Below, one piece after another: positions 1 to 11,072 of a stretch of DNA of 11,495 nucleotides. Each line of letters begins with the position of its first letter. The stretch's first letter is position 1. The notes under the pieces are model-generated. The model searched no databases and was not told the DNA's origin. It saw only the letters and a list, made by a program, of their open reading frames with translations. The translations under genes and the position numbers were made by a program. The DNA is from Coemansia sp. RSA 922 (taxonomy: Eukaryota; Kickxellomycota; Kickxellomycetes; Kickxellales; Kickxellaceae), in contig JANBQS010000825.1 in the NCBI GenBank assembly GCA_027577415.1, forward strand, positions 1 to 11,495, read 5' to 3'.

Positions 1-723
1 ATTGGTGACGCCCTTGCTACGGCATTTAACGACAAAGAGCGCATGCTTCGGCGAGAAGACGTGTGGATAACTAGCAAACTAGCGCCTAAGCAGCAGGGCT
101 ACGATGGTGCAGCAGCTGCCGTTCTCGAATCGCTCAAGAGCCTGAAGGTGGACTATATCGATCTTTACCTCATCCACTGGCCAGGCACATCGGGTAAAGC
201 ACTTGACAGCCCTGAACATCGCGTCCTTCGCGAGGGCAGCTGGAAAGCGCTAGAGGCATTATACCGGCAAAAGAAGGTGCGTGCGATTGGAGTCAGCAAT
301 TATACGCAGAGACATTTGGAGGAGATGCGCGAGTACGCCGAGATCAGGCCGATGGTAAACCAGTGTGAATTACATCCACTAGCTCAGCAGCCCGATCTTT
401 TGCAGTACTGTCGTGAAAGTGGCATTGTCTTCACGGCATATGCAAGTCTGGGCGAGGCGGCACTACTGGCTGACGATACAGATGTTGAGCAGCTAAAAGT
501 GATCTGTAACCGTCGGCCAGACTTGACTCGTGCCCAAATATTGCTCCTGTGGGGACTACAACATGGGGCGGCGGTGATACCCAAGGCTACCAGCGATAGT
601 CATTTGCGAGAGAATTTTGCTGCTGCCGACCACAGGCTGTCTGCCGATGAAATGGCTATACTTGACGACATTGGCAATAAGCCAGAAAAGCGGTTTTGCT
701 GGAACGCAGCCAATGTTGCATAG
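1..723 (+). CDS. Aldo-keto reductase family protein, 5' partial
   Basis: The frame is already open at base 1 and runs 240 codons to a TAG stop, so the N-terminal barrel strands are outside the window. Aldo-keto reductases are NADPH-dependent cytosolic oxidoreductases with a TIM barrel. Visible hallmarks, numbered from the first codon here: the catalytic Lys in WITSKL (residue 26), the catalytic His in LYLIHWP (residue 59), IGVSNY, a VNQCELHP segment, and the cofactor-binding tail PKATSDSHLREN (Lys 195), which gives the usual K-x7-R-x2-EN spacing. The catalytic Asp and Tyr of the tetrad would lie upstream and cannot be checked. The ATG at 43 is internal to the fold and is not the start. The C-terminus is short and ends without the long loop of some AKR subfamilies, so the substrate cannot be named. 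No damage is seen in the part present. Confidence 0.93.
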   Translation: MGDALATAFNDKERMLRREDVWITSKLAPKQQGYDGAAAAVLESLKSLKVDYIDLYLIHWPGTSGKALDSPEHRVLREGSWKALEALYRQKKVRAIGVSNYTQRHLEEMREYAEIRPMVNQCELHPLAQQPDLLQYCRESGIVFTAYASLGEAALLADDTDVEQLKVICNRRPDLTRAQILLLWGLQHGAAVIPKATSDSHLRENFAAADHRLSADEMAILDDIGNKPEKRFCWNAANVA

Positions 724-1356
724 TCAGCCAAGTTGAAGCCACCATTACTAGGATCTGAGTTGTGCCTCCTCTGACCATGTTTCAAAAATCCAAATCAATT
801 ATCATGTAAAAAGCAGCACCGGTGACAAGTGAAGACCACGGTGTGTAGACATGGTCTGGGTCAACCATTTACCCACATCACAGCACCCCTGTGTTCCTTG
901 CCCTGGGCCGGAATGATCGGCACACTGACTCTGGACCAGAACCTCCTCAACGCACACGGCTCGGAATAGCGTGAACAAATGCAAAGAGATTGCGCTCCTG
1001 CAGATTCTCCTGCTGGTTTTGAGGGAATGCCGAACCCCCAAAAAAGAAACAAGCCATAGCAATGTCCGAGGTGCGCATATTGAATAGCGCGCACCTCGGA
1101 CATTGTCAAGTGTCATATTCTGGCAATCCAGCAAACCATGCCCAGTTTGGGCCCAGAGATCCCGCCAATTCTCACGACCAAGGGCAGCGTGTGTCTGGCC
1201 GCTCAACTACTTTACTTAAATGGGCTTTACACGGCACCAGCAAATTCATAAAGCTGTTATCAGCTATTCTCGACCATTTTTATTATCTAATTTTCATTAT
1301 CGCCATTTATTTTGCTTCCATTGTCCTTAACTTGCATTAATTTACTACTCGCCTTC
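724..1356. other. Intergenic interval between the AKR and transporter genes
   Basis: These 633 bases hold no convincing gene. Several short frames exist on both strands, but none resembles a protein family and they overlap one another. The last ~110 bases before the transporter ATG are rich in T and C and poor in G, as expected for a fungal core promoter and leader, without a clear TATA box. The one strong structural signal is the perfect inverted repeat at 1060-1105, listed separately. Confidence 0.7.
1060..1105. repeat. Perfect 17-bp inverted repeat with 12-nt spacer
   Basis: The left arm CAATGTCCGAGGTGCGC (1060-1076) is the exact reverse complement of the right arm (1089-1105). The spacer is 12 bases, ATATTGAATAGC. 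A 17/17 match with 11 G/C pairs per arm is very unlikely by chance in 11 kb. It lies about 250-300 bp upstream of the transporter ATG and about 340 bp after the AKR stop. It could be a cruciform-forming element, the core of a small inverted-repeat transposon, or an operator for a dimeric regulator. No second copy is visible in the window. Confidence 0.9.
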
Positions 1357-2757
1357 ATGTTATCAAGGAGTGACAGTACGCCTAGTACCCATGTGTCTCA
1401 CGGCGCATGCTCTTGCACCGACGAGATGGAAAAGTGTGACCATCAGGACGTGCCATCTGTCATGACGAACAGCGCTCTTCACACGGAGGCAGCGCCTGAG
1501 GATCAGCTTGAAAAGAACAGTGCACATCTGCCCGCAGAGTTGACCCCGGCCGACTCGGGGTATGCCTGGGTCATAGTTATCTGCGCAGCATTCAATCTGA
1601 TGTGTACGCTAGGCGTCGTCAACAGCTTTGGCGTATTTTCCACTTACTACATAAACTACATCTACCCAAGCGTGTCCGCAGCAAGCATTGCCTGGGTAGG
1701 GACAACAATGTCTCTATTTATGCTTGGTGGCGCCATCGCCACTGGCCCACTAACAGACCGATTTGGATTCCGCTTGGTCTCGCTGGCGGGTACGGTGATA
1801 TGCTGCGTCGCACTTCTTTTGGCTTCGTTTACCAGCGCGTTGTGGCAACTGGTGCTCACACAGGGAATCATGTTTGGCATCGGCGCTGCGTGTATATTCT
1901 CACCATCCGTGTCACTTCCGGCGCAGTGGCACGAGAAACGCCGCCCGCTGGCAACAGGGATTGCGGTGGCTGGTAGCGGAGCTGGCGGTATGATCTTCAC
2001 CGTAGCTACGCAAAACATGATGGACACCATCGGCCACAAGTGGACGCTTCGAGCGCTGGCGCTGATACTGCTGTGTGTGAGTGGGACTGCTGGTATGTTT
2101 TACAAGCGGCGTGTGTCAGTCCCTCGCGGCGGCATTAGTCTCGGCGCCATCGCAAGGGATCCTCGTCTGATTGCAATAGGGATGGCTGGCTTTATGGTCA
2201 ATGTCAGCTATTTTGTTCCTTGGTTTTATCTTCCAACCGCCGCGCTAAAGATCGGCCAGACCAAGCAGGCCGCGAATAACCTCATTCTCTACATGAATGC
2301 TGGAAGTACCGTCGGTCGGATCTTGGCGGCATATGCGGCGATGCTCTTGGGGCCTATCAACAGTATTGCCATCGCATATGTAATATGCTCCGTGCTTGTC
2401 TTGGTAGTGATGCTGGCCGTGAAGAGCATGACGGCCTATATCATACTTGCGGTGATATATGGTGGGCTATCGGCTAGCTTCATCTCTATCACTCCGTTAG
2501 TCCTGACCAACATATTCGGCACTCAGGCAGTCACGACAGCCATGGGAATTATGAACATGTGGTGCGCGATCGGAGTTCTGATCGGAAATCCATCGCAGGG
2601 CGCCATTTATCAAAGGTTCGATCGGCCACACAATGAATTCACAGCCATGTCCATATGGGGGTTTACTGGCCTGCTGCTTGCTGCATGCAGCTATTTGCTG
2701 CTGAAGGCAATTATCATCCGCAACTCGCCTCGCCAACACCTTTGGTCCAAGTTATAG
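1357..2757 (+). CDS. MFS monocarboxylate transporter-like permease
   Basis: A 466-residue major facilitator of the monocarboxylate porter (MCT/MCH) type. The sequence shows a hydrophilic N-terminal tail of about 65 residues, then the family signature DSGYAWV at residues 66-72, directly before the first membrane helix. NSFGVFSTYY follows in helix 1, and GPLTDRFGFR (about 130-139) is the MFS motif A loop between helices 2 and 3. Roughly 12 hydrophobic segments follow, with a basic central loop near FYKRRVS. The first in-frame ATG is at 1357; an earlier TTG at 1312 is not a plausible eukaryotic start. A second ATG at 1426 would only shorten the tail. It probably sits in the plasma or an organelle membrane and moves a carboxylate or related small molecule. 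Fungal members range from monocarboxylates to riboflavin, so the substrate is unassigned. Confidence 0.9.
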   Translation: MLSRSDSTPSTHVSHGACSCTDEMEKCDHQDVPSVMTNSALHTEAAPEDQLEKNSAHLPAELTPADSGYAWVIVICAAFNLMCTLGVVNSFGVFSTYYINYIYPSVSAASIAWVGTTMSLFMLGGAIATGPLTDRFGFRLVSLAGTVICCVALLLASFTSALWQLVLTQGIMFGIGAACIFSPSVSLPAQWHEKRRPLATGIAVAGSGAGGMIFTVATQNMMDTIGHKWTLRALALILLCVSGTAGMFYKRRVSVPRGGISLGAIARDPRLIAIGMAGFMVNVSYFVPWFYLPTAALKIGQTKQAANNLILYMNAGSTVGRILAAYAAMLLGPINSIAIAYVICSVLVLVVMLAVKSMTAYIILAVIYGGLSASFISITPLVLTNIFGTQAVTTAMGIMNMWCAIGVLIGNPSQGAIYQRFDRPHNEFTAMSIWGFTGLLLAACSYLLLKAIIIRNSPRQHLWSKL

Positions 2758-2970
2758 AAATGACATTTATTCGTCTAAATGTTATTCTGTTTAAATACGA
2801 AGAGTGCCAATTAATTTTATTAGTCAGAGCTGGATGCCCATCTATGCTTTTAATTGAAATCGTGCTTACTTCAAGAACATTAGTGCTGTCGAAGAGCCGT
2901 CTGCAGCACAGGCTCTAGCCATGATGTCTGACGATCAAATACACGTAGCTCAGAGCGAGGCAGTTGAGCA

Positions 2971-2993
2971 TGTCCAATATGCATGGTTGGACA
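2971..2993. repeat. Short inverted repeat (7-bp arms)
   Basis: TGTCCAA (2971-2977) and TTGGACA (2987-2993) are perfect inverted arms around a 9-base spacer that itself contains ATGCAT. It lies between the transporter 3' UTR and the Mdm31-like promoter. It could be a dimeric factor site or a chance hairpin. Confidence 0.4.
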
Positions 2994-3068
2994 ATTTGGT
3001 TCGACGCTGCAACCGCAAGCTTTGCATTGCACCTCACTTCACATAATCATTGTCTGTAGGCGAGGTGG

Positions 3069-3092
3069 CTCGCATCTTGGCCAAAATGCGAG
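3069..3092. promoter_or_regulatory. 24-bp near-perfect palindrome upstream of the Mdm31-like gene
   Basis: The stretch reads CTCGCAT, C, TTGGCCAA, A, ATGCGAG: 11 of 12 base pairs are symmetric, with one mismatched pair (3076/3085). It is centred about 138 bp before the ATG at 3219, a typical place for an upstream activating or repressing site. The TTGGCCAA core and flanking GCAT/ATGC half-sites suggest a symmetric dimer site. The factor is unknown. Confidence 0.45.
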
Positions 3093-3218
3093 TCGAGCCG
3101 ATACTACTTGCCCTGATCCAGATTCTAGCATCTTTGCACAAACTCGAACTTTTCCTCTTTAAAATTTATCTCTATATTTTAATTACATAAACCCTCAGTG
3201 TCAGTGCACGTGGCTGCC

Positions 3219-5789
3219 ATGTCGCTTTGTAAATATCCTTGCGCGCGGCGGGCTTTCTTGGCACTGACCCAACGAAGGCCAGTAATGCCGATGCAGGGTC
3301 ACTCATTACGTCAATGGCTATGTGCTGGCATTCAAACCTGGCGCCCTGGCAACGTTAGGGTCGACGCACTGGCGAGTAGAATACCGCAGGGTAACATAGA
3401 TATATACTTGGCACCAGCAAATATAAATAAGGACAGATACCGCCAAACACGGCTATTGGCCCTTACAAAGAAGCGCCGCAGCGATGATAGCAGCGGCAAC
3501 GATAGCAACAACTATCACTACCCGCGCTTTTCTCGTGCCTCTTGCCGCACCAGCGCCAGCCTGGCAAAGTTTGGCTTGGTCCCTGGTGCATTCCTGTACG
3601 AACATTGCTCGGAAACGCCAGTCGTCAAATCAACTCAGTGTAGCACGGCTGAAAACCGCACATCTTTGGATTGCAGCACTCGATCTTGGTACCTGACCAG
3701 ACCTGCGCTAGAGACGTCACGTTTGACCTCTTTTTTGTGGTCAAGGAACCTTCATACGGACTCGGAGCCCAGTAAGGATCCCATGTGCGGGATGTGTGGA
3801 CGTGCAGCCCCGGCAGGCGATGCTGTTCGTCGCCAGCCACGCGATTCACGCGTCTTGCCGCCAGATCCAAGCGGCCAGTTAAGGATTACTGCACCAAAAG
3901 ACCCAAAGGCGCTCCCCGAGCCGTCGTTTGACCCGCTGTACTTTTATCACTACGGATCTAGGCAAGAAATTATGCGCGAGATAACAGGGTTCTTCCCGCG
4001 GCTGCGTGCGCGGCTGAGAAGGGCGCTTAAGGGGTCGTACCAGAAGCGGCCTTGGACAATTGACGACGTTTTCGCACTAGCAACATGGGTGATCATGTCT
4101 CAGGCGATGCTGCTGCTCATTGGCACTACAACAACCGTGTCAGTAATTCTATGGACACTCAACCGCCTTCAGTACCAGGACTGGATCGCGCACAAGCTTA
4201 GCGACTGGGTCTCGTCGGCACTGGGTGTCGCCGTGTCCTTTGAATCGGCAATTGTGCCCGCATGGCGTCGAGGGGCCATCCGCCTAAAGAACGTCAAAAT
4301 ATATTGTGGACCTGAACACGGCGCACTGTTGGATGGCGGAGACCGAGACACTAACTTTACAAACTACAAGCTGCAAATCGACCAGATCGACGTCACGCTT
4401 TCGCTGTGGCGGTGGATGGACGACCGCGGGCTAATCCGCGAGTGTGCCATGCGAGGAGTTCGCGGCGTTGTGGACCGCAGACCAGTGTGGTGGGACCCCG
4501 AAATCACATACAGTCCCAGTGAATCTAGACGTGCGCGCCTACCGGGAGTATTTGACTTGGACTCGCTAGACATCGAGGACATGCTGCTGACTGTGCATCC
4601 CTGGCAAAACTTTCGCCCCATCACCGTGTCTATCTACTCCGCCAGTCTACCTCGGTTTAGGGACCGGTGGATGCTCTATGACGCCCTCAACGCAAACTCA
4701 ATCGTAGGCATGTACGACGGCAGCCTGTTTACGATCCACCAAGCCCACCAACACCTGCACCCTCACTCACTCACCATGCATACAGCGGGGCTTTATGGCT
4801 ACGATGGCCAGCCCAAGGGAGACCGGAGGGCAGAGGGTGCAGAAGCAGAAGCCGAGGCCCGCACTACTCATGTGCAAGTCGAAGGCCTAAATATTGACCA
4901 TATAAACTCTGGCGTTGACGGACCAGTGGGCTGGATTACATCTGGGCGGCTAAATGTGTCAGCCCTGGTCAACTTCCCCACCCAGCCATCAGCGACTGAC
5001 CCTGCGATGGCCATTCGAAAGATTGTTGACAACATCAACGACAGCATCGACGTTGTCATCTTGCCCAGCATGCCAGACTGGTCAAACCCAGAGAAATCGC
5101 CCAACTCGCTAGTCCGCGCACTGTATCACTTGGACATGGTAGATTCGCCTCTAGCGCAAGAGATGCACGACCGCCTCAAGCGCCGAGCAGAGCGAGAAAG
5201 CCAGCGTCGATTGGAGAAGCAGCGGCAGCGCACGGCATCATGGAGTCAGCCGCTTGCCCCGATCCCAAGCCACTTGATCGGCGGCGTCCTACAGCACACA
5301 GTACACCCTACTGCACATGCTGATGCACACTCTATCGAAACGCTGCCAAGAGCCCTCGAAGACCCCACAGCTGTTCACGTCGATTTGCAAGTCGAATTTA
5401 ACGACATTCGGGCCTCGGTGCCTCTGAGCATGCCAGCGCTTGGCTACCCGCTGCTGTCAGCAGTGCTGGTGCGGCCGATTGTTGCGTACATGAACGCGCA
5501 TCGCACTTCGCTACCCATGCGCTGCCAGCTACGCCTGCGCCTCGATGACTTTGATGGTGCCTGGAGCTTTTGGGACTCTGGCGCCGATAGCCTCATCACA
5601 CAGGGGATTGGTGCAGCTTTTGCGCAGTTGGCGCAGAACGAACGCGAGCGAAATCGCCGGCTCAAGCTCGTTGGTTGGTGGAGTGTTACTGCCATTGCTC
5701 GCCAGTGTGCTCGCTTAGCCGACTTTGTGTTCAGCCAACGCAGCTTTTTTTCGTATCTGGGCGTAGCTCCCGAAACGGATCGCATATAG
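3219..5789 (+). CDS. Mdm31/Mdm32-like mitochondrial inner membrane protein
   Basis: An 856-residue protein of the fungal Mdm31/Mdm32 family, inner-membrane proteins needed for mitochondrial shape, mtDNA nucleoid stability and cardiolipin-linked lipid balance; remote homology to AsmA/TamB-type lipid-transfer proteins has been proposed. The ATG at 3219, in GCCATGT context, opens an Arg-rich, acid-free stretch (MSLCKYPCARRAFLALTQRR) typical of a matrix-targeting presequence. The GTG at 3198 is not used. The conserved core starts near residue 279 (WTIDDVFALATW), continues through a membrane helix ending in VILWTLNRL, then FESAIVPAWRRGAIRLKNVKI, the most diagnostic block. A charged Arg/Glu/Gln stretch lies around residues 650-672, and a C-terminal hydrophobic segment precedes the stop. 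At 856 residues it is well above the ~580 of yeast Mdm31; most of the excess is the low-complexity N-terminal ~270 residues, including a CGMC pair near 189. No visible intron. Confidence 0.9.
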   Translation: MSLCKYPCARRAFLALTQRRPVMPMQGHSLRQWLCAGIQTWRPGNVRVDALASRIPQGNIDIYLAPANINKDRYRQTRLLALTKKRRSDDSSGNDSNNYHYPRFSRASCRTSASLAKFGLVPGAFLYEHCSETPVVKSTQCSTAENRTSLDCSTRSWYLTRPALETSRLTSFLWSRNLHTDSEPSKDPMCGMCGRAAPAGDAVRRQPRDSRVLPPDPSGQLRITAPKDPKALPEPSFDPLYFYHYGSRQEIMREITGFFPRLRARLRRALKGSYQKRPWTIDDVFALATWVIMSQAMLLLIGTTTTVSVILWTLNRLQYQDWIAHKLSDWVSSALGVAVSFESAIVPAWRRGAIRLKNVKIYCGPEHGALLDGGDRDTNFTNYKLQIDQIDVTLSLWRWMDDRGLIRECAMRGVRGVVDRRPVWWDPEITYSPSESRRARLPGVFDLDSLDIEDMLLTVHPWQNFRPITVSIYSASLPRFRDRWMLYDALNANSIVGMYDGSLFTIHQAHQHLHPHSLTMHTAGLYGYDGQPKGDRRAEGAEAEAEARTTHVQVEGLNIDHINSGVDGPVGWITSGRLNVSALVNFPTQPSATDPAMAIRKIVDNINDSIDVVILPSMPDWSNPEKSPNSLVRALYHLDMVDSPLAQEMHDRLKRRAERESQRRLEKQRQRTASWSQPLAPIPSHLIGGVLQHTVHPTAHADAHSIETLPRALEDPTAVHVDLQVEFNDIRASVPLSMPALGYPLLSAVLVRPIVAYMNAHRTSLPMRCQLRLRLDDFDGAWSFWDSGADSLITQGIGAAFAQLAQNERERNRRLKLVGWWSVTAIARQCARLADFVFSQRSFFSYLGVAPETDRI

Positions 5790-5818
5790 ATTGGATTTAT
5801 TTGCATGTCTCTATAAAA
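5790..5818 (-). terminator. 29-bp convergent gap with AATAAA on the minus strand
   Basis: The Mdm31-like and LAMTOR2-like genes end tail to tail with only 29 bp between stops. TTTATT at 5796-5801 is a canonical AATAAA for the minus-strand gene, 17 bp past its stop. TATAAA at 5812-5817 is a weaker plus-strand candidate. With signals this close, the mature 3' ends of both mRNAs almost certainly run into the opposite coding region. Confidence 0.5.
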
Positions 5819-6622
5819 TCACAATGACGAGTGGCTGACAAGGAACTCTTCTAGATACCGGCACAAGCTGTCTGACTTTAGCTTTAGAAGGCCAAGCGGC
5901 GTAGCTGTCTTGCTGAGGAGAAACAGCCTGTAGCCTCCCAACCGAGTCACGACGGCCTTGCCATGCTCGCACTCGATAATGATCATATTGAGCATATTTT
6001 CGAGCATTCTGTCGTGCACCTCCGAAGCAGTGTCGCCCGTGTAATCGTCAACATCGCGCTCCTTTCGTTCAATCAAGTTAGGCATGCCTTCGTAGCTTTG
6101 CCACAGGTTGGCTGCGATAGCCAGGTCGTCATCTAGCTTTTCCCGCGTGCTCATGACTGGAGACATTTCGGCCAGGTCCTCGCTCAGCGAGGACGAGCAA
6201 GAGCCAATCTCGGTTGGCTGACTGTCTTCTTGCAGCTGAGCGGTGGTACTGCTGCCAAAAGCCGTCGACGACTGTGCTGCATAGTGTAGTTGGCGTGGTG
6301 AGCCGCCTGTGGTCGCCGATACCCCTGTATGCTTTCTTTGCAGCCTTTCAGCTCCATGGGCTGCTGCTCGGTCGCCTTCGCCTTGTTGAGCCTCGTCTCC
6401 GCTGTAGCTGGAAAAAGGCGATCTCTGTGTGCCCTTGTCATTCGATGCGCCATGAGGTGACGAGCGACGGTGAGCGCTATCCTGCTTAACAGCAGGACCA
6501 AGAACCTGCGACACGGCCGCATGAGCTAGAACCACGCCATCTTCATTAAAGATAGCGCACATGCGAATGTCATTGGTCAGTGCCTGCTCCAAGATTCTTT
6601 TCAAATTCTTCGACCTGAGCAT
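5819..6622 (-). CDS. LAMTOR2: LAMTOR2/p14-like roadblock protein (Ragulator/EGO subunit) with a large insertion
   Basis: 267 residues. The N-terminus (MLRSKNLKRILEQAL, then FNEDGVVLAHAAV, 1-37) matches the first helix and two strands of LAMTOR2. From residue 164 the protein resumes the family (DDDLAIAANLWQSYE, IIIECEHGKAVVTRL, GLLKLKSDSLCRYLEEFL). LAMTOR2 is a roadblock/LC7 subunit of Ragulator, which anchors Rag GTPases on lysosome or vacuole membranes for TORC1 control; the yeast counterpart is Slm4/Ego3. Human LAMTOR2 is about 125 residues. Here residues 38-163 are an extra stretch rich in Ser, Thr, Gln, Gly and Ala with no predicted fold, and a shorter extra loop (ERKERDVDDYTGDTASEVH) follows the second helix. 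The frame stays open throughout with no obvious GT-AG intron, so the insert is probably translated. It is divergently placed from the gene-poor tract on the right. Confidence 0.88.
   Translation of the reverse strand: MLRSKNLKRILEQALTNDIRMCAIFNEDGVVLAHAAVSQVLGPAVKQDSAHRRSSPHGASNDKGTQRSPFSSYSGDEAQQGEGDRAAAHGAERLQRKHTGVSATTGGSPRQLHYAAQSSTAFGSSTTAQLQEDSQPTEIGSCSSSLSEDLAEMSPVMSTREKLDDDLAIAANLWQSYEGMPNLIERKERDVDDYTGDTASEVHDRMLENMLNMIIIECEHGKAVVTRLGGYRLFLLSKTATPLGLLKLKSDSLCRYLEEFLVSHSSL
6134..6511 (-). other. Low-complexity insertion inside the LAMTOR2-like gene
   Basis: These 378 bases (126 codons, a multiple of three) fall between the second strand and the second helix of the roadblock fold, a loop position where extra sequence should be tolerated. 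The content is hydrophilic, with poly-Ser and many Gln, Thr and Gly residues, and contains SSSLSEDLAEM and several Ser/Thr-Pro pairs that could be phosphorylated. An unspliced intron is the main alternative; no strong GTAAGT-type donor was seen. Confidence 0.6.
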
Positions 6623-6840
6623 CGCCTGTTCAGCAGTAGGTGATCAATGAGAAAGAGAAAAGAAAAAAGATGTTAATTACAAAAAAATAATAATAATAAT
6701 TGCGCTTTGAAAAGAGAGCGAAAAGAGAAAGCACTACTTTCCCATCACTTTGATGATTTTGTGTGATGCAAAATATGGTGGGGGTAGCTGACGTCACGAA
6801 GTATAGTGTGGCTCTCGTTTTCTTTTAGCTATGTTGACGT
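6623..6840 (-). promoter_or_regulatory. Upstream region of the LAMTOR2-like gene
   Basis: This interval is strongly A/G-rich on the plus strand near the gene (about 6648-6735), so T/C-rich in the sense of the gene. It includes a short TAA/AAT microsatellite around 6687-6702. Such pyrimidine tracts are common before fungal start codons. Further up it carries a perfect CRE, listed separately. No coding frame is seen. Confidence 0.55.
6789..6796. promoter_or_regulatory. Consensus CRE (TGACGTCA)
   Basis: A perfect eight-base palindromic CRE/ATF site, about 170 bp before the LAMTOR2-like ATG. A half-site, TGACGT, follows at 6835-6840. ATF/CREB-type bZIP factors bind this sequence and in fungi often answer stress or nutrient signals, which would fit a TORC1-pathway gene. 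Binding is inferred, not shown. Confidence 0.5.
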
Positions 6841-7826
6841 TTAGCTGGAGATGATTGCTGCTTTGAATGTCGCTGTCAACACCGTGTCGAATGTGCCTAT
6901 CCAAACCACTGGGCCAGGATGATATAAAAGTCGATCAAGGACTCCAATATCACATATGCTTTGTGCCAGGATGAAAACGTCATAGTCAGTCCTGAGCTTA
7001 GCACCATTATTGCATTTAGTTCCAGCCCGCACCTCTGTGGAGTCAGTGCTCATCAGTCTACGCCTAGCTATACCAAGGAGTATGCCATCAAGCATAGCAA
7101 CATGATAATCAATGCTGGCAGATGATAGCTTCTTTGACCTCAAAGTTGTGGCCTAGAGGTGGACTAACAAGTCTAGTGGTCCCAATGACAAGTACTGTGG
7201 CCATGTATCCAACTTGTTTTTGATAAATTTCACTGACAAGATCTTTGATTCTGTTATGAATGAGTGTATGAACAACTTACTCTTGTAGCCATCGCTAGAT
7301 AATAATATGCTCAGTTGACACATATATTTTCTAGAAAAGGCCAAGACAGCATTGTCCATTTCTCTATCTAAGGGGGATAATTGTTACACAGCTAACCTTG
7401 GCATTAGAGCTAGCAATGTAAAATCTCAATGATAAGTGCACACCGAGTCCCTGTTACAAAGCGATAAAACACGCATCCCTTGTCTGATTATATTCAGGAG
7501 ACAAACCATGACTCTAACGTAACGTAGAGAAGTTGTGGTTTGAGTATAATAAGTGAGAGAAAACGAACAAGGAAACAAGAGAATAAACACAGGTGCAGAG
7601 AGCTGATATATGCGAGTAAGCAAGTGAATCCAGAAACGATGAGTTTGCATTACTGCCCAATAAGTAGGCAGAGATGCTAGGCCAATACTAGATAAATTAT
7701 CAACCGAATACACACCCAACAAAAGACTCGGATGTCTATATCAAAATACAGGTCACAAGTGCATGCTGGCAGGAAAGACTCAGCAATGATTTGGACAAAA
7801 CCAATGGAAAAGAACTATATCCTTTT
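6841..7826. other. Gene-poor tract, mostly unassigned decayed sequence
   Basis: This ~1-kb stretch is richer in A and T than its neighbours and has no intact gene. Long but unfamiliar frames occur on both strands, for example minus 6841-7143 and 7426-7722, and a plus-strand frame that is open from 6841 to about 7125 except for one stop. These look like remains of coding sequence worn down by mutation. The only part with any family resemblance is 7157-7288, listed below. I could not assign the rest. Confidence 0.5.
7157..7288 (+). pseudogene. Possible piggyBac-type transposase N-terminal relic
   Basis: In plus frame 2 the segment encodes SNLFLINFTDKIFDSVMNE (about 7205-7261). Its pattern F-x3-F-T-D-x2-x-D-x3-x-x-E lines up without gaps with the start of the DDE_Tnp_1_7 (piggyBac) domain, which typically reads like F-x-L-F-F-T-D-x-I-x-D-x-I-V-x-E-T-N. 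A stop at 7286-7288 and further stops after it break the frame, and neither catalytic Asp nor flanking terminal repeats were found. The match covers only about 20 residues, so this is a weak call; a chance open frame is the alternative. Confidence 0.22.
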
Positions 7827-7827
7827 G

Positions 7828-8295
7828 CTAAGGGCACTGGGGTGGTCGTACTTTCATTTTGAGTGAGGACTTGATAAAGCCTCGGGTAATTTGCAAGGAT
7901 GATGGGGGCCTAAGAGGTACCTCTATGCAAGCGCTGGGGCTGTGGCAGTGACGGCGGCGATGACTGTTGCTTGTTGGTATATGGCTTTCCCTTGGAATAT
8001 GAGTCGCAGGCATCTTGGACGGAGCAGCAACTGGTTGCTTGTGCGAGGGCTTGGTAGTAGAGTGGGGCTAGTTAGAGACAGTCCCCTTGGCCGTCGTAGT
8101 AGTGCCTGATTTGCCCGGCTCACTCTTGTCAGCATTCGACTTCTTGCTAGTATCAGGCGGAGAAGTCGACGGCTTAAAGCTATCTGGAATATCGCCGGTC
8201 TATCGCAGACTAACAACGATCCGTCGGAAGTTAATAACAGCCACTCTGTTGCGGTTGAACCGCCGTCTCTTAGTAGTTCCATCGTATTTTGGCAT
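7828..8295 (-). pseudogene. Gag-like relic of a copia-type retroelement
   Basis: On the minus strand a frame starting at an ATG at 8295 runs to 7828 with two internal stops (8200-8202 and 8068-8070). It opens MPKYDGTTKRRRF, close to the K-[YF]-D-G-T-N-[YF]-x2-W start of copia Gag proteins, then becomes rich in Lys, Ser, Thr and Pro. It starts ~95 bases inside the LTR at 8391-8602, the place a gag would occupy if that LTR were the 5' LTR of a minus-strand element. Another minus ATG at 8341 starts an alternative frame (MPRSTKVPKPK) that is stopped after 22 codons, so a frameshift may separate the true start from the rest. No zinc knuckle is seen. The family call rests on position plus a short motif. 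Confidence 0.4.
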
Positions 8296-8390
8296 GGTCC
8301 ACATACATTTTTGGTTTTGGCACCTTAGTAGACCGTGGCATGATGTTTCCAGACCTATTTGTTAACTTTCTTGTAGCAGTTCGGTATACC

Positions 8391-8602
8391 TGTGGGAATA
8401 GCTACTGTGAGGAAGATAATAGTAAATAAATTCACTCGTAAACAAGGCGAAGAGATGAGAGAAGCTAAAACAAGTATAATAAATGATGTGTTCTGTTATC
8501 TTGCTCAAAGCTCTGCCAAGAGCTCCTGTAAAATATGGTTAGTTCTCCTTGTAATTGGCGCAATAGAGTATGTTGGCGTCTGTTTAGAAGTAGCAACCAA
8601 TA
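8391..8602 (-). mobile_element. Long terminal repeat A (212 bp, diverged copy)
   Basis: Begins TGTGGGAATA and ends AACCAATA. It aligns end to end with the 212-bp LTR at 10861-11072, at an identity I estimate by eye as roughly 60-70%, with compensating small gaps. Shared landmarks include AGTAAATAAATT, an AGCTCT-rich doublet near the middle (8508-8525) and AAGTAGCAACCAA at the end. Similarity stops at both termini. The minus orientation is inferred from the Gag-like relic just to its left, which would make this the 5' LTR. No 5-bp target-site duplication is seen (ATACC left, ATCGT right), which fits an LTR with internal sequence on one side rather than a solo LTR. Confidence 0.7.
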
Positions 8603-8924
8603 ATCGTGCTATTACTAAGTCATGACTTTGTTGTACTTGTGTGCTGACTCAGAGAAGTTGTCAAACAGTCCACAAAGAGTGATCATGATAAATATAAGCG
8701 TCCTCAACTATCTGGCCAGCATAAGATAATTTATAGTATCTACGCCTGTTTAATTATTATCCATAGCACCAAAGAATTATGTCGATTAGTTGTTTGCCTT
8801 GTGACTTTCAGGTCTATAGAGCAAAGACGATGTCGCGACAATTTCATATATTAGTATAAATAATAACAATACACAACTAGGACAACTTTGGCATATAATT
8901 TATTAGCCGCGTAGTGGGACCTAA
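8603..8924. other. AT-rich interval between LTR A and the FRG1-like frame
   Basis: These 322 bases show no gene, no exon with the Lys-rich start expected for FRG1, and no further repeat that I can recognise. CTTTCAG at about 8805-8811 and CCTAAG at 8920-8925 could act as splice acceptors, but no matching upstream donor plus ATG exon was found. Confidence 0.5.
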
Positions 8925-9785
8925 GATCCTGATAATGACAAGTGCCAAAGCACCACTGGGTGGGTTCCCATAGAGTCGCTAGAAGACTTGGAAGGTCCTA
9001 TTGCGCTCTATCATAGAGACGAACAGCTTTACGCTTTAGCCATTCCACCCAAGGAGGAGATGCAGGCGCGAGCAGACACGAACGAGCAAGTCCCAGCACT
9101 CTACACACTTGACAACGCATCGCTAATGGAGAGCGAGCCTCTGAGCGTCGAGCAAGTGTTTGCTGTTCGCAGATCCGTACCCATGGCTGGCCCAGCCGAC
9201 GCAGAGGCGACAATGTACTCGTTAAAGTCGTTTGTAGGCACATATTTGTCGGCCGACAGGCATGGACGCCTTTCCTGCGCCTCAACAGCCATTGGCGCCC
9301 TGGAAATGTGGACCCCCGTTCTGCTTCCCGACAGAGGCGATGGTGCAATAGCATTTATGATCCGTCCACCAGGTGTATCTGAAGATCGATTCCTGAGCGC
9401 CGAGACAAACAATACAGCGCCGGAGGGCAGGCCTGCTGTATTGACCGGATCCACACTGCCTGTCCACATTCATGCACTTGGAACGTCCATTGGATACTCC
9501 CAGGTATTCTTCGCAAAATGTCAGGCCGCAATTAGGCAGAAACGCCAACAGGCCATAGCTGCAACAGCAGCCGATAGCATCGTGGGCATAGCGCCCATGT
9601 CTGGCAACCTTGCTGTCGACGAAGCCACCCAAGCCAAGCGCTTTCAGAGCTTTCAGGGCGGGCGACCACGTCCAACAGCTGAGCGCAGCATGCCCGATCT
9701 CAATAGCGCCAAGCAGGCTGGCAAGTACGGGGAGGGTCTGTTGGATCGACGCGAAAAGACAAAATCGGACCGTTACTGCAAGTAA
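8925..9785 (+). CDS. FRG1: FRG1 family protein, 5' end missing or unrecognised
   Basis: The open frame runs from just after a TAA (8922-8924) to the TAA at 9783-9785, 286 codons. The family match is clear: TGWVPIESLEDLEGPIALYH at the start, SLKSFVGTYLSADRHGRL near residues 98-115 in the beta-trefoil/fascin-like core, then MWTPVL, and the signature tail KRFQSFQ (about 238) and LLDRREKTKSDRYCK at the very end. FRG1 proteins are nuclear/nucleolar, linked to mRNA splicing and, in animals, to actin bundling. No ATG precedes the conserved start; the first in-frame ATG (9060) would remove about 45 residues of homologous sequence. The basic Lys-rich N-terminus of the family is absent. Either a short 5' exon joins at the CCTAAG acceptor (8920-8925), or the 5' end was lost next to LTR A. 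The remaining frame is intact, with no stop or shift. Confidence 0.85.
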   Translation, partial: DPDNDKCQSTTGWVPIESLEDLEGPIALYHRDEQLYALAIPPKEEMQARADTNEQVPALYTLDNASLMESEPLSVEQVFAVRRSVPMAGPADAEATMYSLKSFVGTYLSADRHGRLSCASTAIGALEMWTPVLLPDRGDGAIAFMIRPPGVSEDRFLSAETNNTAPEGRPAVLTGSTLPVHIHALGTSIGYSQVFFAKCQAAIRQKRQQAIAATAADSIVGIAPMSGNLAVDEATQAKRFQSFQGGRPRPTAERSMPDLNSAKQAGKYGEGLLDRREKTKSDRYCK

Positions 9786-9928
9786 AATCTTTAAGCATGG
9801 TGTGTGATTTAAATACCACAAGCGTACAACACTGGCAGCGAGAGACGCCTGCTACGCTTCTTTTTTTTTGTTCTGATCTCACGCGATTATTTTGCCTTGT
9901 TACTTGTCCGTATTTTCATCACTTTCCT
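9786..9928 (+). promoter_or_regulatory. Short FRG1-DcpS intergenic region
   Basis: Only 143 bp separate the FRG1-like stop from the DcpS ATG, so the FRG1 3' end and the DcpS promoter share it. It contains GATTTAAATACC, a possible TATA-like site, and a nine-T run at 9861-9869 with flanking pyrimidines, typical of fungal promoters. The two genes are co-directional; readthrough transcripts are possible. Confidence 0.4.
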
Positions 9929-10888
9929 ATGGATTCCGACACAAACAACACCACAACGCTGTCCGAGATTGAGGGCCTGCTTCAGCGCTTCCAGTTCAAA
10001 GAGGTGCTTAGCGACGACACAAGCTCCAAAACGATCTGGCTACTGGGGATCATCGCTGCCACCACCAGTACGGCCAACATTGTAGATGAGCCTGTAGTTG
10101 TTGGACACAATGCAGCCATTGTTGTTCTTGAGCGCATGGCCTTCTCACCTCTGGCAATTGCTGAAGCTGGCTGCTCACTCCCTACGCTACTTGACTCAGT
10201 ACTGCTAGCCACTGGTGAGCGCAACGACGTCTATGCTTGGGCTACTGGAGATGCTAGTGTTGCCGCGCTCAAGCCAGACCTCCGCATTGCGCTGACATAC
10301 CCAGCCACGCAGAAGCACATTGACAAGCATCGCCGTCAGCTGCGCAAATGGGTCAGCGAGACACCAGAGCTCTATTCCCGAATCACCAAGTCATTTATTG
10401 ACAGCCAGCCCACCTCCCGCGTCCAGTGGGTACACAACATTCTCTCCAAGCAGGTTGAATCAGAGCACATTGTGTTTGAGGACCCGGACCCAGACAACGG
10501 CTTTATTATTGTCCCTGATCTCAAGTGGGACGCTACCAACACAGACAACATGTACTTGGTCGCCATTGTCCACCGCCGCGACCTGCGCTCACTGCGCGAC
10601 CTTACCAGCAATCATCTGCCGCTGCTCAACAATTTACGCAGCAAGGCAGCTGTAGCTGCTAAAAAGTATGGCGTATCGTCCGACCAGCTTAGACTATATG
10701 TTCACTATCAGCCGTCATACTACCATCTTCATGTGCACATCACCAATGTGCTGCTCGAAGGCAAAGGCATGCTTGCTGGTAGGGCGCATCTTCTGGACAG
10801 CGTTATCGACAACATTGGCAACATTGCTTCCGACTATAACCAATGGACCACCATTCCATATGTTGGAATAACTACTGGAACAAGGTAA
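9929..10888 (+). CDS. DcpS-type scavenger mRNA-decapping enzyme (HIT family) with LTR-derived C-terminus
   Basis: 319 residues from the ATG at 9929. DcpS hydrolyses m7GpppN cap dinucleotides and short capped fragments left after 3'-5' mRNA decay. The swapped N-terminal domain comes first, then VQWVHNIL (Trp167) and Glu177, PDPDNGFIIVPDLKW with Asp197 and Lys199, matching the human cap-contacting Trp175, Glu185, Asp205 and Lys207. HRRDLRSLRDLT follows, and the histidine triad SYYHLHVHI has its central His at 268. All key residues are present. The frame is open further up to 9797, but that extension has no family similarity and lies in the likely promoter (a T-run at 9861-9869), so the downstream ATG is chosen. 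The last eight residues, VGITTGTR, and the TAA are encoded by the LTR that starts at 10861; animal homologues continue about 16 residues past this point. The catalytic core is untouched. Confidence 0.92.
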   Translation: MDSDTNNTTTLSEIEGLLQRFQFKEVLSDDTSSKTIWLLGIIAATTSTANIVDEPVVVGHNAAIVVLERMAFSPLAIAEAGCSLPTLLDSVLLATGERNDVYAWATGDASVAALKPDLRIALTYPATQKHIDKHRRQLRKWVSETPELYSRITKSFIDSQPTSRVQWVHNILSKQVESEHIVFEDPDPDNGFIIVPDLKWDATNTDNMYLVAIVHRRDLRSLRDLTSNHLPLLNNLRSKAAVAAKKYGVSSDQLRLYVHYQPSYYHLHVHITNVLLEGKGMLAGRAHLLDSVIDNIGNIASDYNQWTTIPYVGITTGTR

Positions 10889-11072
10889 TAGTCAATAAAT
10901 TGGTTTGATAATGAGGTGAAGAGAAGAAGATAAGCTAAATAAAGTAAGGTATATGATACATTGTGTTGTCTTGTTCAGAGCTCTTGCCAGAGCTCTTATA
11001 AACGTTGGTTGGTTCCCCTACCGGTTGGTGCAGTAGAAGACATAGACATTCTATAGGAAGTGGCAGCCAACA
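10861..11072 (-). mobile_element. Long terminal repeat B (212 bp, Ty1/copia type)
   Basis: Begins TGTTGGAATA, the same ten bases that open yeast Ty1 LTRs, and ends GCAGCCAACA, giving 6-bp perfect inverted termini TGTTGG/CCAACA. It is the same length as LTR A and alignable to it throughout. On the minus strand a TATAAGAG box (plus 10993-11000) lies in the middle, as expected for a U3 promoter in that orientation. With the integrase relic on its right, it would be the 3' LTR of a minus-strand element; no clear polypurine tract is seen at the inner edge. The left edge falls inside the DcpS coding frame. Flanking pentamers (CCATA left, CCTGA right) do not match, as expected when internal sequence lies on one side. 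Confidence 0.78.
10894..10899 (+). terminator. AATAAA supplied to DcpS by the LTR
   Basis: A canonical AATAAA lies 5 bp after the DcpS stop, inside LTR B, and is conserved in LTR A (8425-8430). If used, the retroelement gives the host mRNA its 3'-end processing signal. It is close to the stop, so the downstream LTR sequence would form the 3' UTR. Confidence 0.4.

Follow-up and report, generated by a model that had tools for sequence, protein, structure and literature searches.

The DcpS gene of the window (the whole 11,495-nt stretch of DNA analysed here, which makes up all of contig C823 of Coemansia sp. RSA 922) is an extra, truncated duplicate and not the main DcpS gene of the genome. We consider it probable that the window holds a rearranged duplicate, in which LTR-LTR recombination joined an LTR-tailed copy of DcpS to an LTR residing in a copia element. 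The original prediction had an LTR taking the place of the 3' end of DcpS itself; instead, a full-length gene with a normal tail was found on contig C226, and the window carries a duplicate cut on both sides.

The assembly has a size of 20.4 Mb in 960 contigs. The contigs searched seem to be no shorter than about 10 kb, and a sequence described below as single copy is single among these.

A truncated duplicate of the FRG1-DcpS locus

The full-length FRG1-DcpS locus was found on C226 in a genome search with the DcpS protein. There, DcpS ends in YVLGSSDELWSHWTVQ and is preceded by an FRG1-like gene that is longer and has an ATG of its own. Positions 8937-10863 of the window align to this locus with 97.4% identity, and the match breaks off at both ends. 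Thus, the 1.92-kb segment at 8937-10860 is an extra copy of the locus that has lost the start and the first codons of FRG1 on one side and the last 15 codons of DcpS on the other (Table 1).

Table 1. Coordinates of the features described in the window and the basis of each assignment.
Feature	Positions	Strand	Basis
Older LTR-like relative in this family, to the left of the duplicate and not adjoining it	8391..8602	.	70% identical to the LTR at 10861; 95% copy on C778
FRG1-like gene copy without 5' end and start codon	8937..9785	+	Homology to C226 FRG1 begins at 8937; C778 shares this junction
FRG1-DcpS intergenic DNA, copied along; probable DcpS promoter	9786..9928	+	Alignment with C226
DcpS copy, residues 1 to about 311, native C-terminus missing	9929..10860	+	PF05652, PF11969
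LTR, 212 bp, TGTTGG...CCAACA, probably mosaic	10861..11072	.	Family alignment, segment identities
LTR-derived codons VGITTGTR and stop TAA	10861..10888	+	Sequence reading, alignment of DcpS proteins
AATAAA in the LTR, candidate poly(A) signal	10894..10899	+	Same place in 10/17 aligned family copies
copia pol fragment that covers the integrase C-terminus up to the RT linker and reaches the contig end	11073..11495	-	Comparison with C921 and C226

The DcpS copy matches PF05652 (1.5e-17) and PF11969 (5.7e-30) and has the HIT histidines, which together identify it as a DcpS. It differs from C226 at 25 sites in 932 nt, and its protein is 90% identical to a protein of Coemansia aciculifera. Since the copied segment contains pieces of two genes along with intergenic DNA, its template was DNA rather than one mRNA. 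The joint presence of the FRG1 piece, the intergenic DNA and DcpS argues against a processed retrocopy of one spliced mRNA.

A repeat of about 150-170 bp follows the native DcpS on its downstream side (C226:9604-9750). The same repeat was seen on C851, C676, C2, C305 and C124, as well as on C532 and C835, where it is near DcpS copies.

The junction between DcpS and the LTR

The reading frame of the window DcpS (9929-10888) crosses into the edge of the LTR exactly at 10860|10861, where the LTR starts with TGTTGGAATA. The predicted protein ends in ...IPY|VGITTGTR. The LTR codes for VGITTGTR, supplies the last base of the tyrosine codon ahead of it, and contains the TAA stop (10886-10888) as well as the AATAAA. 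The original prediction had placed the LTR edge at 10861 and had derived the tail, the stop and the AATAAA from LTR DNA, all of which the sequence and the termini of the LTR family confirmed. The exact junction base is common to three places, i.e. the window, C835 and C532, and because of this identity a junction formed by chance is excluded.

The presumed insertion point in DcpS is CCATA|CGTGC, 15 codons before the native stop. The DcpS proteins of close Coemansia relatives end in VLGSSDELWSHW or near it; the window copy lacks this C-terminus, while the C226 protein has its native tail. No VGITTGTR-like tail occurred in any of the 35 database DcpS proteins that we aligned. The ...LW... motif was present in 23 of them, two were partial and consistent with the usual tail (...LGS), three ended otherwise, one fish protein had its own tail, and six stopped short of the region. 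A protein search with residues 278-319 of the window copy returned eight proteins, each matching 83% of the stretch, and all eight are among the 35 that are devoid of the tail.

A search of the genome contigs for the missing DcpS tail next to an LTR elsewhere found none: the tail is present on C226 only, and the remaining 11 matches belong to the repeat further downstream of DcpS. Among the entries listed in literature searches that were not aimed at exactly this, no report of an LTR-tailed DcpS came up, which does not prove that there is none.

The LTR family and the copia flank

The window LTR had 12 matches in the genome. It is a repeated sequence with fixed TG...CA ends, as is characteristic of LTRs: among the 17 family copies aligned, nine start with TGTTGG and four more with TGTGGG or TGTAGA, while 12 end with CCAACA and four more with near variants. 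A solo copy on C839 is flanked by ATAAC left and right, a clean 5-bp target duplication. Given the shared termini and this duplication, position 10861 is a true edge of the element. The LTR-like copy at 8391, said earlier to carry the same LTR bases, is an older relative with 70% identity over the LTR. On C412, two LTRs of the family lie about 5.5 kb apart, but elements nested there obscure the sense strand of the family.

By eye, we saw no target-site duplication at the window LTR (CCATA on the left, CCTGA on the right) or at the LTRs of C835 and C532. For the window LTR this would be explained by recombination. The second half of the LTR insertion was not found among the genome contigs.

The identity between the window and C835 LTRs drops from 63/69 (91%) over the first ~82 positions to 79/128 (62%) beyond them (Fisher p 5e-6). 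The LTRs of C835 and C532, on the other hand, are evenly similar, with 91-93% identity in all five segments. The signal comes from LTR positions 41-82, where the window is 90% identical to C835, 81% to C532 and 61-76% to six other copies. Beyond the first ~80 bp, the window LTR is probably nearer to other family members. Two points weaken the case for a mosaic: the opening 40 bp are conserved family-wide, with 65-85% identity of the window to the six other copies, and the last segment resembles C835 (69%) and C532 (75%) slightly more than those five of the six that extend into it (57-69%). A crossover inside the LTR near 10930-10945 would explain both the mosaic and the flanks.

On its right side, the window LTR splits the integrase-RT linker of copia at 11072|11073. 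The same copia stretch is uninterrupted in C921 (91%) and in C226 (81%); therefore, the LTR sits inserted in copia, with its expected left flank swapped for DcpS. The LTR|copia junction was seen on the window contig alone, one of three matches. The original description of the LTR as copia-type is not borne out in the sense of copia's own LTR: the window LTR splits the linker rather than following RNase H, and C921 is uninterrupted at this place.

Sister copies of the duplicate

The DcpS copies on C835 and C532 share the junction with the window and are both broken, the former having lost about 50 bp and undergone a frameshift, the latter lacking about 311 bp internally. The frame of the tail on both contigs is unlike that in the window because of one extra base in their LTR. 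Survival of DcpS by means of an exapted 3' end is unsupported because the ordinary, intact gene is present on C226; in addition, the C835 and C532 copies are broken, and selection on the window copy is not shown.

C778, with 97% identity to window positions 1-9506, has the same left limit of the duplicate (8937). This long stretch is present twice, and four reading frames are intact on both contigs. The pair may represent two haplotypes or a segmental or recent duplication. Between the window and C778, the four other frames have 61 synonymous and 31 non-synonymous differences and no gaps, compared to 11 synonymous and 19 non-synonymous differences and four missing bases in the FRG1 piece, a pseudogene-like pattern. 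Separately, we observed a 267-aa open frame at 5819-6622 (minus strand) that has no Pfam match at E 0.001. This frame is open on C778 too, with eight synonymous and five non-synonymous differences.

CpG decay and probable gene conversion

The window and C226 differ at 3 of 528 positions (0.6%) in 8937-9464 compared to 44 of the remaining 1396 (p 4e-4, with the boundary chosen post hoc). Divergence in segments between 9465 and 10830, whose limits were also chosen post hoc, varies from 1.5 to 5.6%, and in the last 30 bp before the LTR it reaches 4/30 (13%). A T at 10844 is common to the window, C835 and C532 and not to C226. I42R and V56I are common to C226 and C835, whereas the window has the residues seen in most relatives. 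Despite the common left junction, the FRG1 piece differs from C226 at 30 positions in C778 and at four in the window. Since these shared changes conflict, no single clock-like tree fits them, and gene conversion was invoked. The pattern suggests that copies or haplotypes exchanged sequence, or that some of the copies decayed faster.

For CpG sites, we compared C835 (1-835), C532 (5092-5512) and C778 (1-566) with C226. In these copies, C-to-T changes were found at 39 of 190 CpG sites and at 43 of 798 other C, a ~4x excess (p 9e-10). The window copy had such changes at 5 of 214 CpG sites and 18 of 811 other C, i.e. no CpG decay; the difference in CpG loss from the other copies (5/214 vs 39/190) has a p of 1e-9. 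The likely cause of this pattern is that the silent copies were methylated, whereas the window copy escaped methylation or was recently renewed. Three genome matches to the C5-methyltransferase family PF00145 were found (C793, C934 and C499), and a study of CDCA7 and DNA methyltransferases (PMC10538959) names a zinc-finger protein of the CDCA7 type for Coemansia reversa. The CpG decay in the duplicates suggests that cytosines of duplicated DNA are methylated in Coemansia.

Tests for selection on the truncated copy

The 25 differences between the window and C226 DcpS comprise 16 synonymous and 9 non-synonymous changes (p 0.004 vs neutrality). Changes on the window branch were polarised with C835 and C532 as reference and classified by hand. 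With this polarisation, 8/17 were synonymous, compared to a fraction of 0.357 expected under neutrality from the observed mutation spectrum (p 0.23, a comparison of low power). For three of the 17 sites (in codons 42 and 56), most relatives agree with the window; without these three, the count is 8/14 (p 0.08).

The start-less FRG1 copy, with 8/14 synonymous (p 0.05), and the broken C532 copy, with 22/41 (p 0.014), are rich in synonymous changes as well, while the broken C835 copy has 22/51 (p 0.17). Since the FRG1 piece and C532 look partly constrained though broken, the constraint in the window-C226 counts may come from the branch of the working gene. For the same reason, and because it includes that branch, the raw dN/dS of 0.17 between the window and C226 is no proof of selection. 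The probability of no stop codon after 17 neutral changes was 0.60 in a model that covers substitutions and no indels. The intact frame and the missing CpG decay are compatible with recent gene conversion as well as with residual function.

The predicted protein

The HIT triad (H266, H268 and H270) is located upstream of the junction and is intact in the window copy, just as originally described, and it is invariant in the alignment. All 31 columns that are invariant in 45 other DcpS proteins, the catalytic histidines included, are kept. Two leucines of the tail, L313 and L319 (C226 numbering), each conserved in at least 90% of the 45 proteins, are missing along with it, and S takes the place of the nearly invariant P155, as it does in P0001. 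The last seven DcpS codons before the LTR carry three non-synonymous changes (N304, W306 and T307). The sites of N304 and W306 have Y and R (one K) in C226 and in all 10 listed relatives that reach them.

The structure model of the native C226 protein (mean pLDDT 89.1) ends with a strand at 309-314 and a helix at 319-325. In the model of the window protein (mean pLDDT 88.5), the strand at 309-315 is kept by way of the LTR codons and the helix is gone; the last block has a pLDDT of 68. It is possible that the 319-residue protein would be active. DcpS is described as acting as a homodimer in PMC7329352. The human DCPS variant Thr316Met, reported in the same source, would correspond to window residues 307-308 at the end of the alignment, where the placement is uncertain by about one residue, and it does not enter into the conclusions.

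Origin of the LTR-tailed copy

The rearrangement that we favor would have started with a DcpS copy taking up an LTR element at the insertion point given above, so that the frame ran into the LTR edge. The resulting junction is present in three places among the contigs. Two family LTRs, one in DcpS and one in copia, would have recombined to produce the copia right flank and the mosaic LTR, a step that is documented in part. Later, the body of the window copy may have been overwritten by gene conversion from a full-length gene, which would explain why a near-native body adjoins a divergent final 30 bp. Transcription from the copied promoter would yield a 319-residue DcpS that has the cap-hydrolase core and a terminal strand completed by the LTR and that lacks the last helix. 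Since the full-length gene is present, this DcpS is most likely dispensable. What speaks against this reading is that the window frame is intact, unlike the frameshifted C835 copy and the C532 copy with its 311-bp loss.

This intact frame would also be expected if the LTR-tailed copy worked as a second DcpS, using the copied promoter as well as the TAA and AATAAA of the LTR, and were kept by selection. The preserved invariant columns, the modelled final strand retained with LTR codons, and the absence of a CpG decay that is strong in the other copies all agree with this possibility, as do the synonymous fractions of 16/25 against C226 and 8/14 on the window branch under one polarisation. However, the 8/17 under the other polarisation fits neutrality, the helix of the native model and the two nearly invariant leucines are lost, the changes at N304, W306 and T307 cluster within the last seven codons, and the tail is absent from the database proteins compared. 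We thus regard a working second DcpS as unlikely. Similarly unlikely is that the protein is an active second enzyme or, via the homodimer, a regulator of the full-length DcpS; it would be expressed and so spared CpG decay, with the LTR completing the last beta strand and fixing a separate tail while gene conversion maintains the body.

An explanation by capture, in which a retroelement carried DcpS along by transduction or as a retrocopy and thereby spread the junction, would account for a junction exactly at the LTR edge in three occurrences. Yet the copied segment consists of pieces of two genes and intergenic DNA, its left limit at 8937 lies 335 bp from the nearest LTR copy and carries no element sequence in either the window or C778, and by eye no polypurine tract or primer-binding site was recognised next to the LTR, all of which makes capture very improbable. 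Wrong joins caused by repeats seem the least credible origin of all. The assembly is fragmented, the LTR is repetitive, and the LTR|copia junction occurs in the window contig only, but the left junction is found independently on C778 and the DcpS|LTR junction on C835 and C532. In addition, the C835 copy is supported by a protein of Coemansia sp. S2, P0011 (GGI08_002527), which matches it at 99.6% over 243 residues, though it stops short of the DcpS|LTR junction.

Relation to known events

Ectopic recombination between LTRs is a known process, and solo LTRs occur at rearrangement breakpoints. The case described here adds to the known events of this kind, and its history can be read unusually well. 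As in LTR-LTR recombination, the window LTR lies exactly where two unrelated flanks meet and appears as a mosaic of two members; what sets it apart is that a coding frame forms one of the flanks and takes its protein tail from the LTR.

There is also a likeness to LTR exonisation as presented in PMC2008291, in that LTR DNA joins a coding frame, here with the last codons, the stop and possibly the AATAAA. In contrast to the exonisation described there, the window case needs no splicing, affects an extra copy and is known from DNA alone. With truncated duplicates or pseudogenes of housekeeping genes it has in common that it is partial at both ends, that the full-length gene is located elsewhere and that the sister copies of the junction are broken. 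It differs from them in its intact frame and in the absence of CpG decay.

One genome thus shows how a copy of a housekeeping gene gains a retroelement-coded end, through an in-frame LTR edge, a repeated junction and LTR-LTR recombination, with gene conversion probably restoring one copy as CpG decay erodes others. Caution is called for, since sequences of this sort are deposited in databases as proteins. For example, P0011, deposited as a hypothetical protein under GGI08_002527, is the product of a frameshifted DcpS copy of the C835 type.
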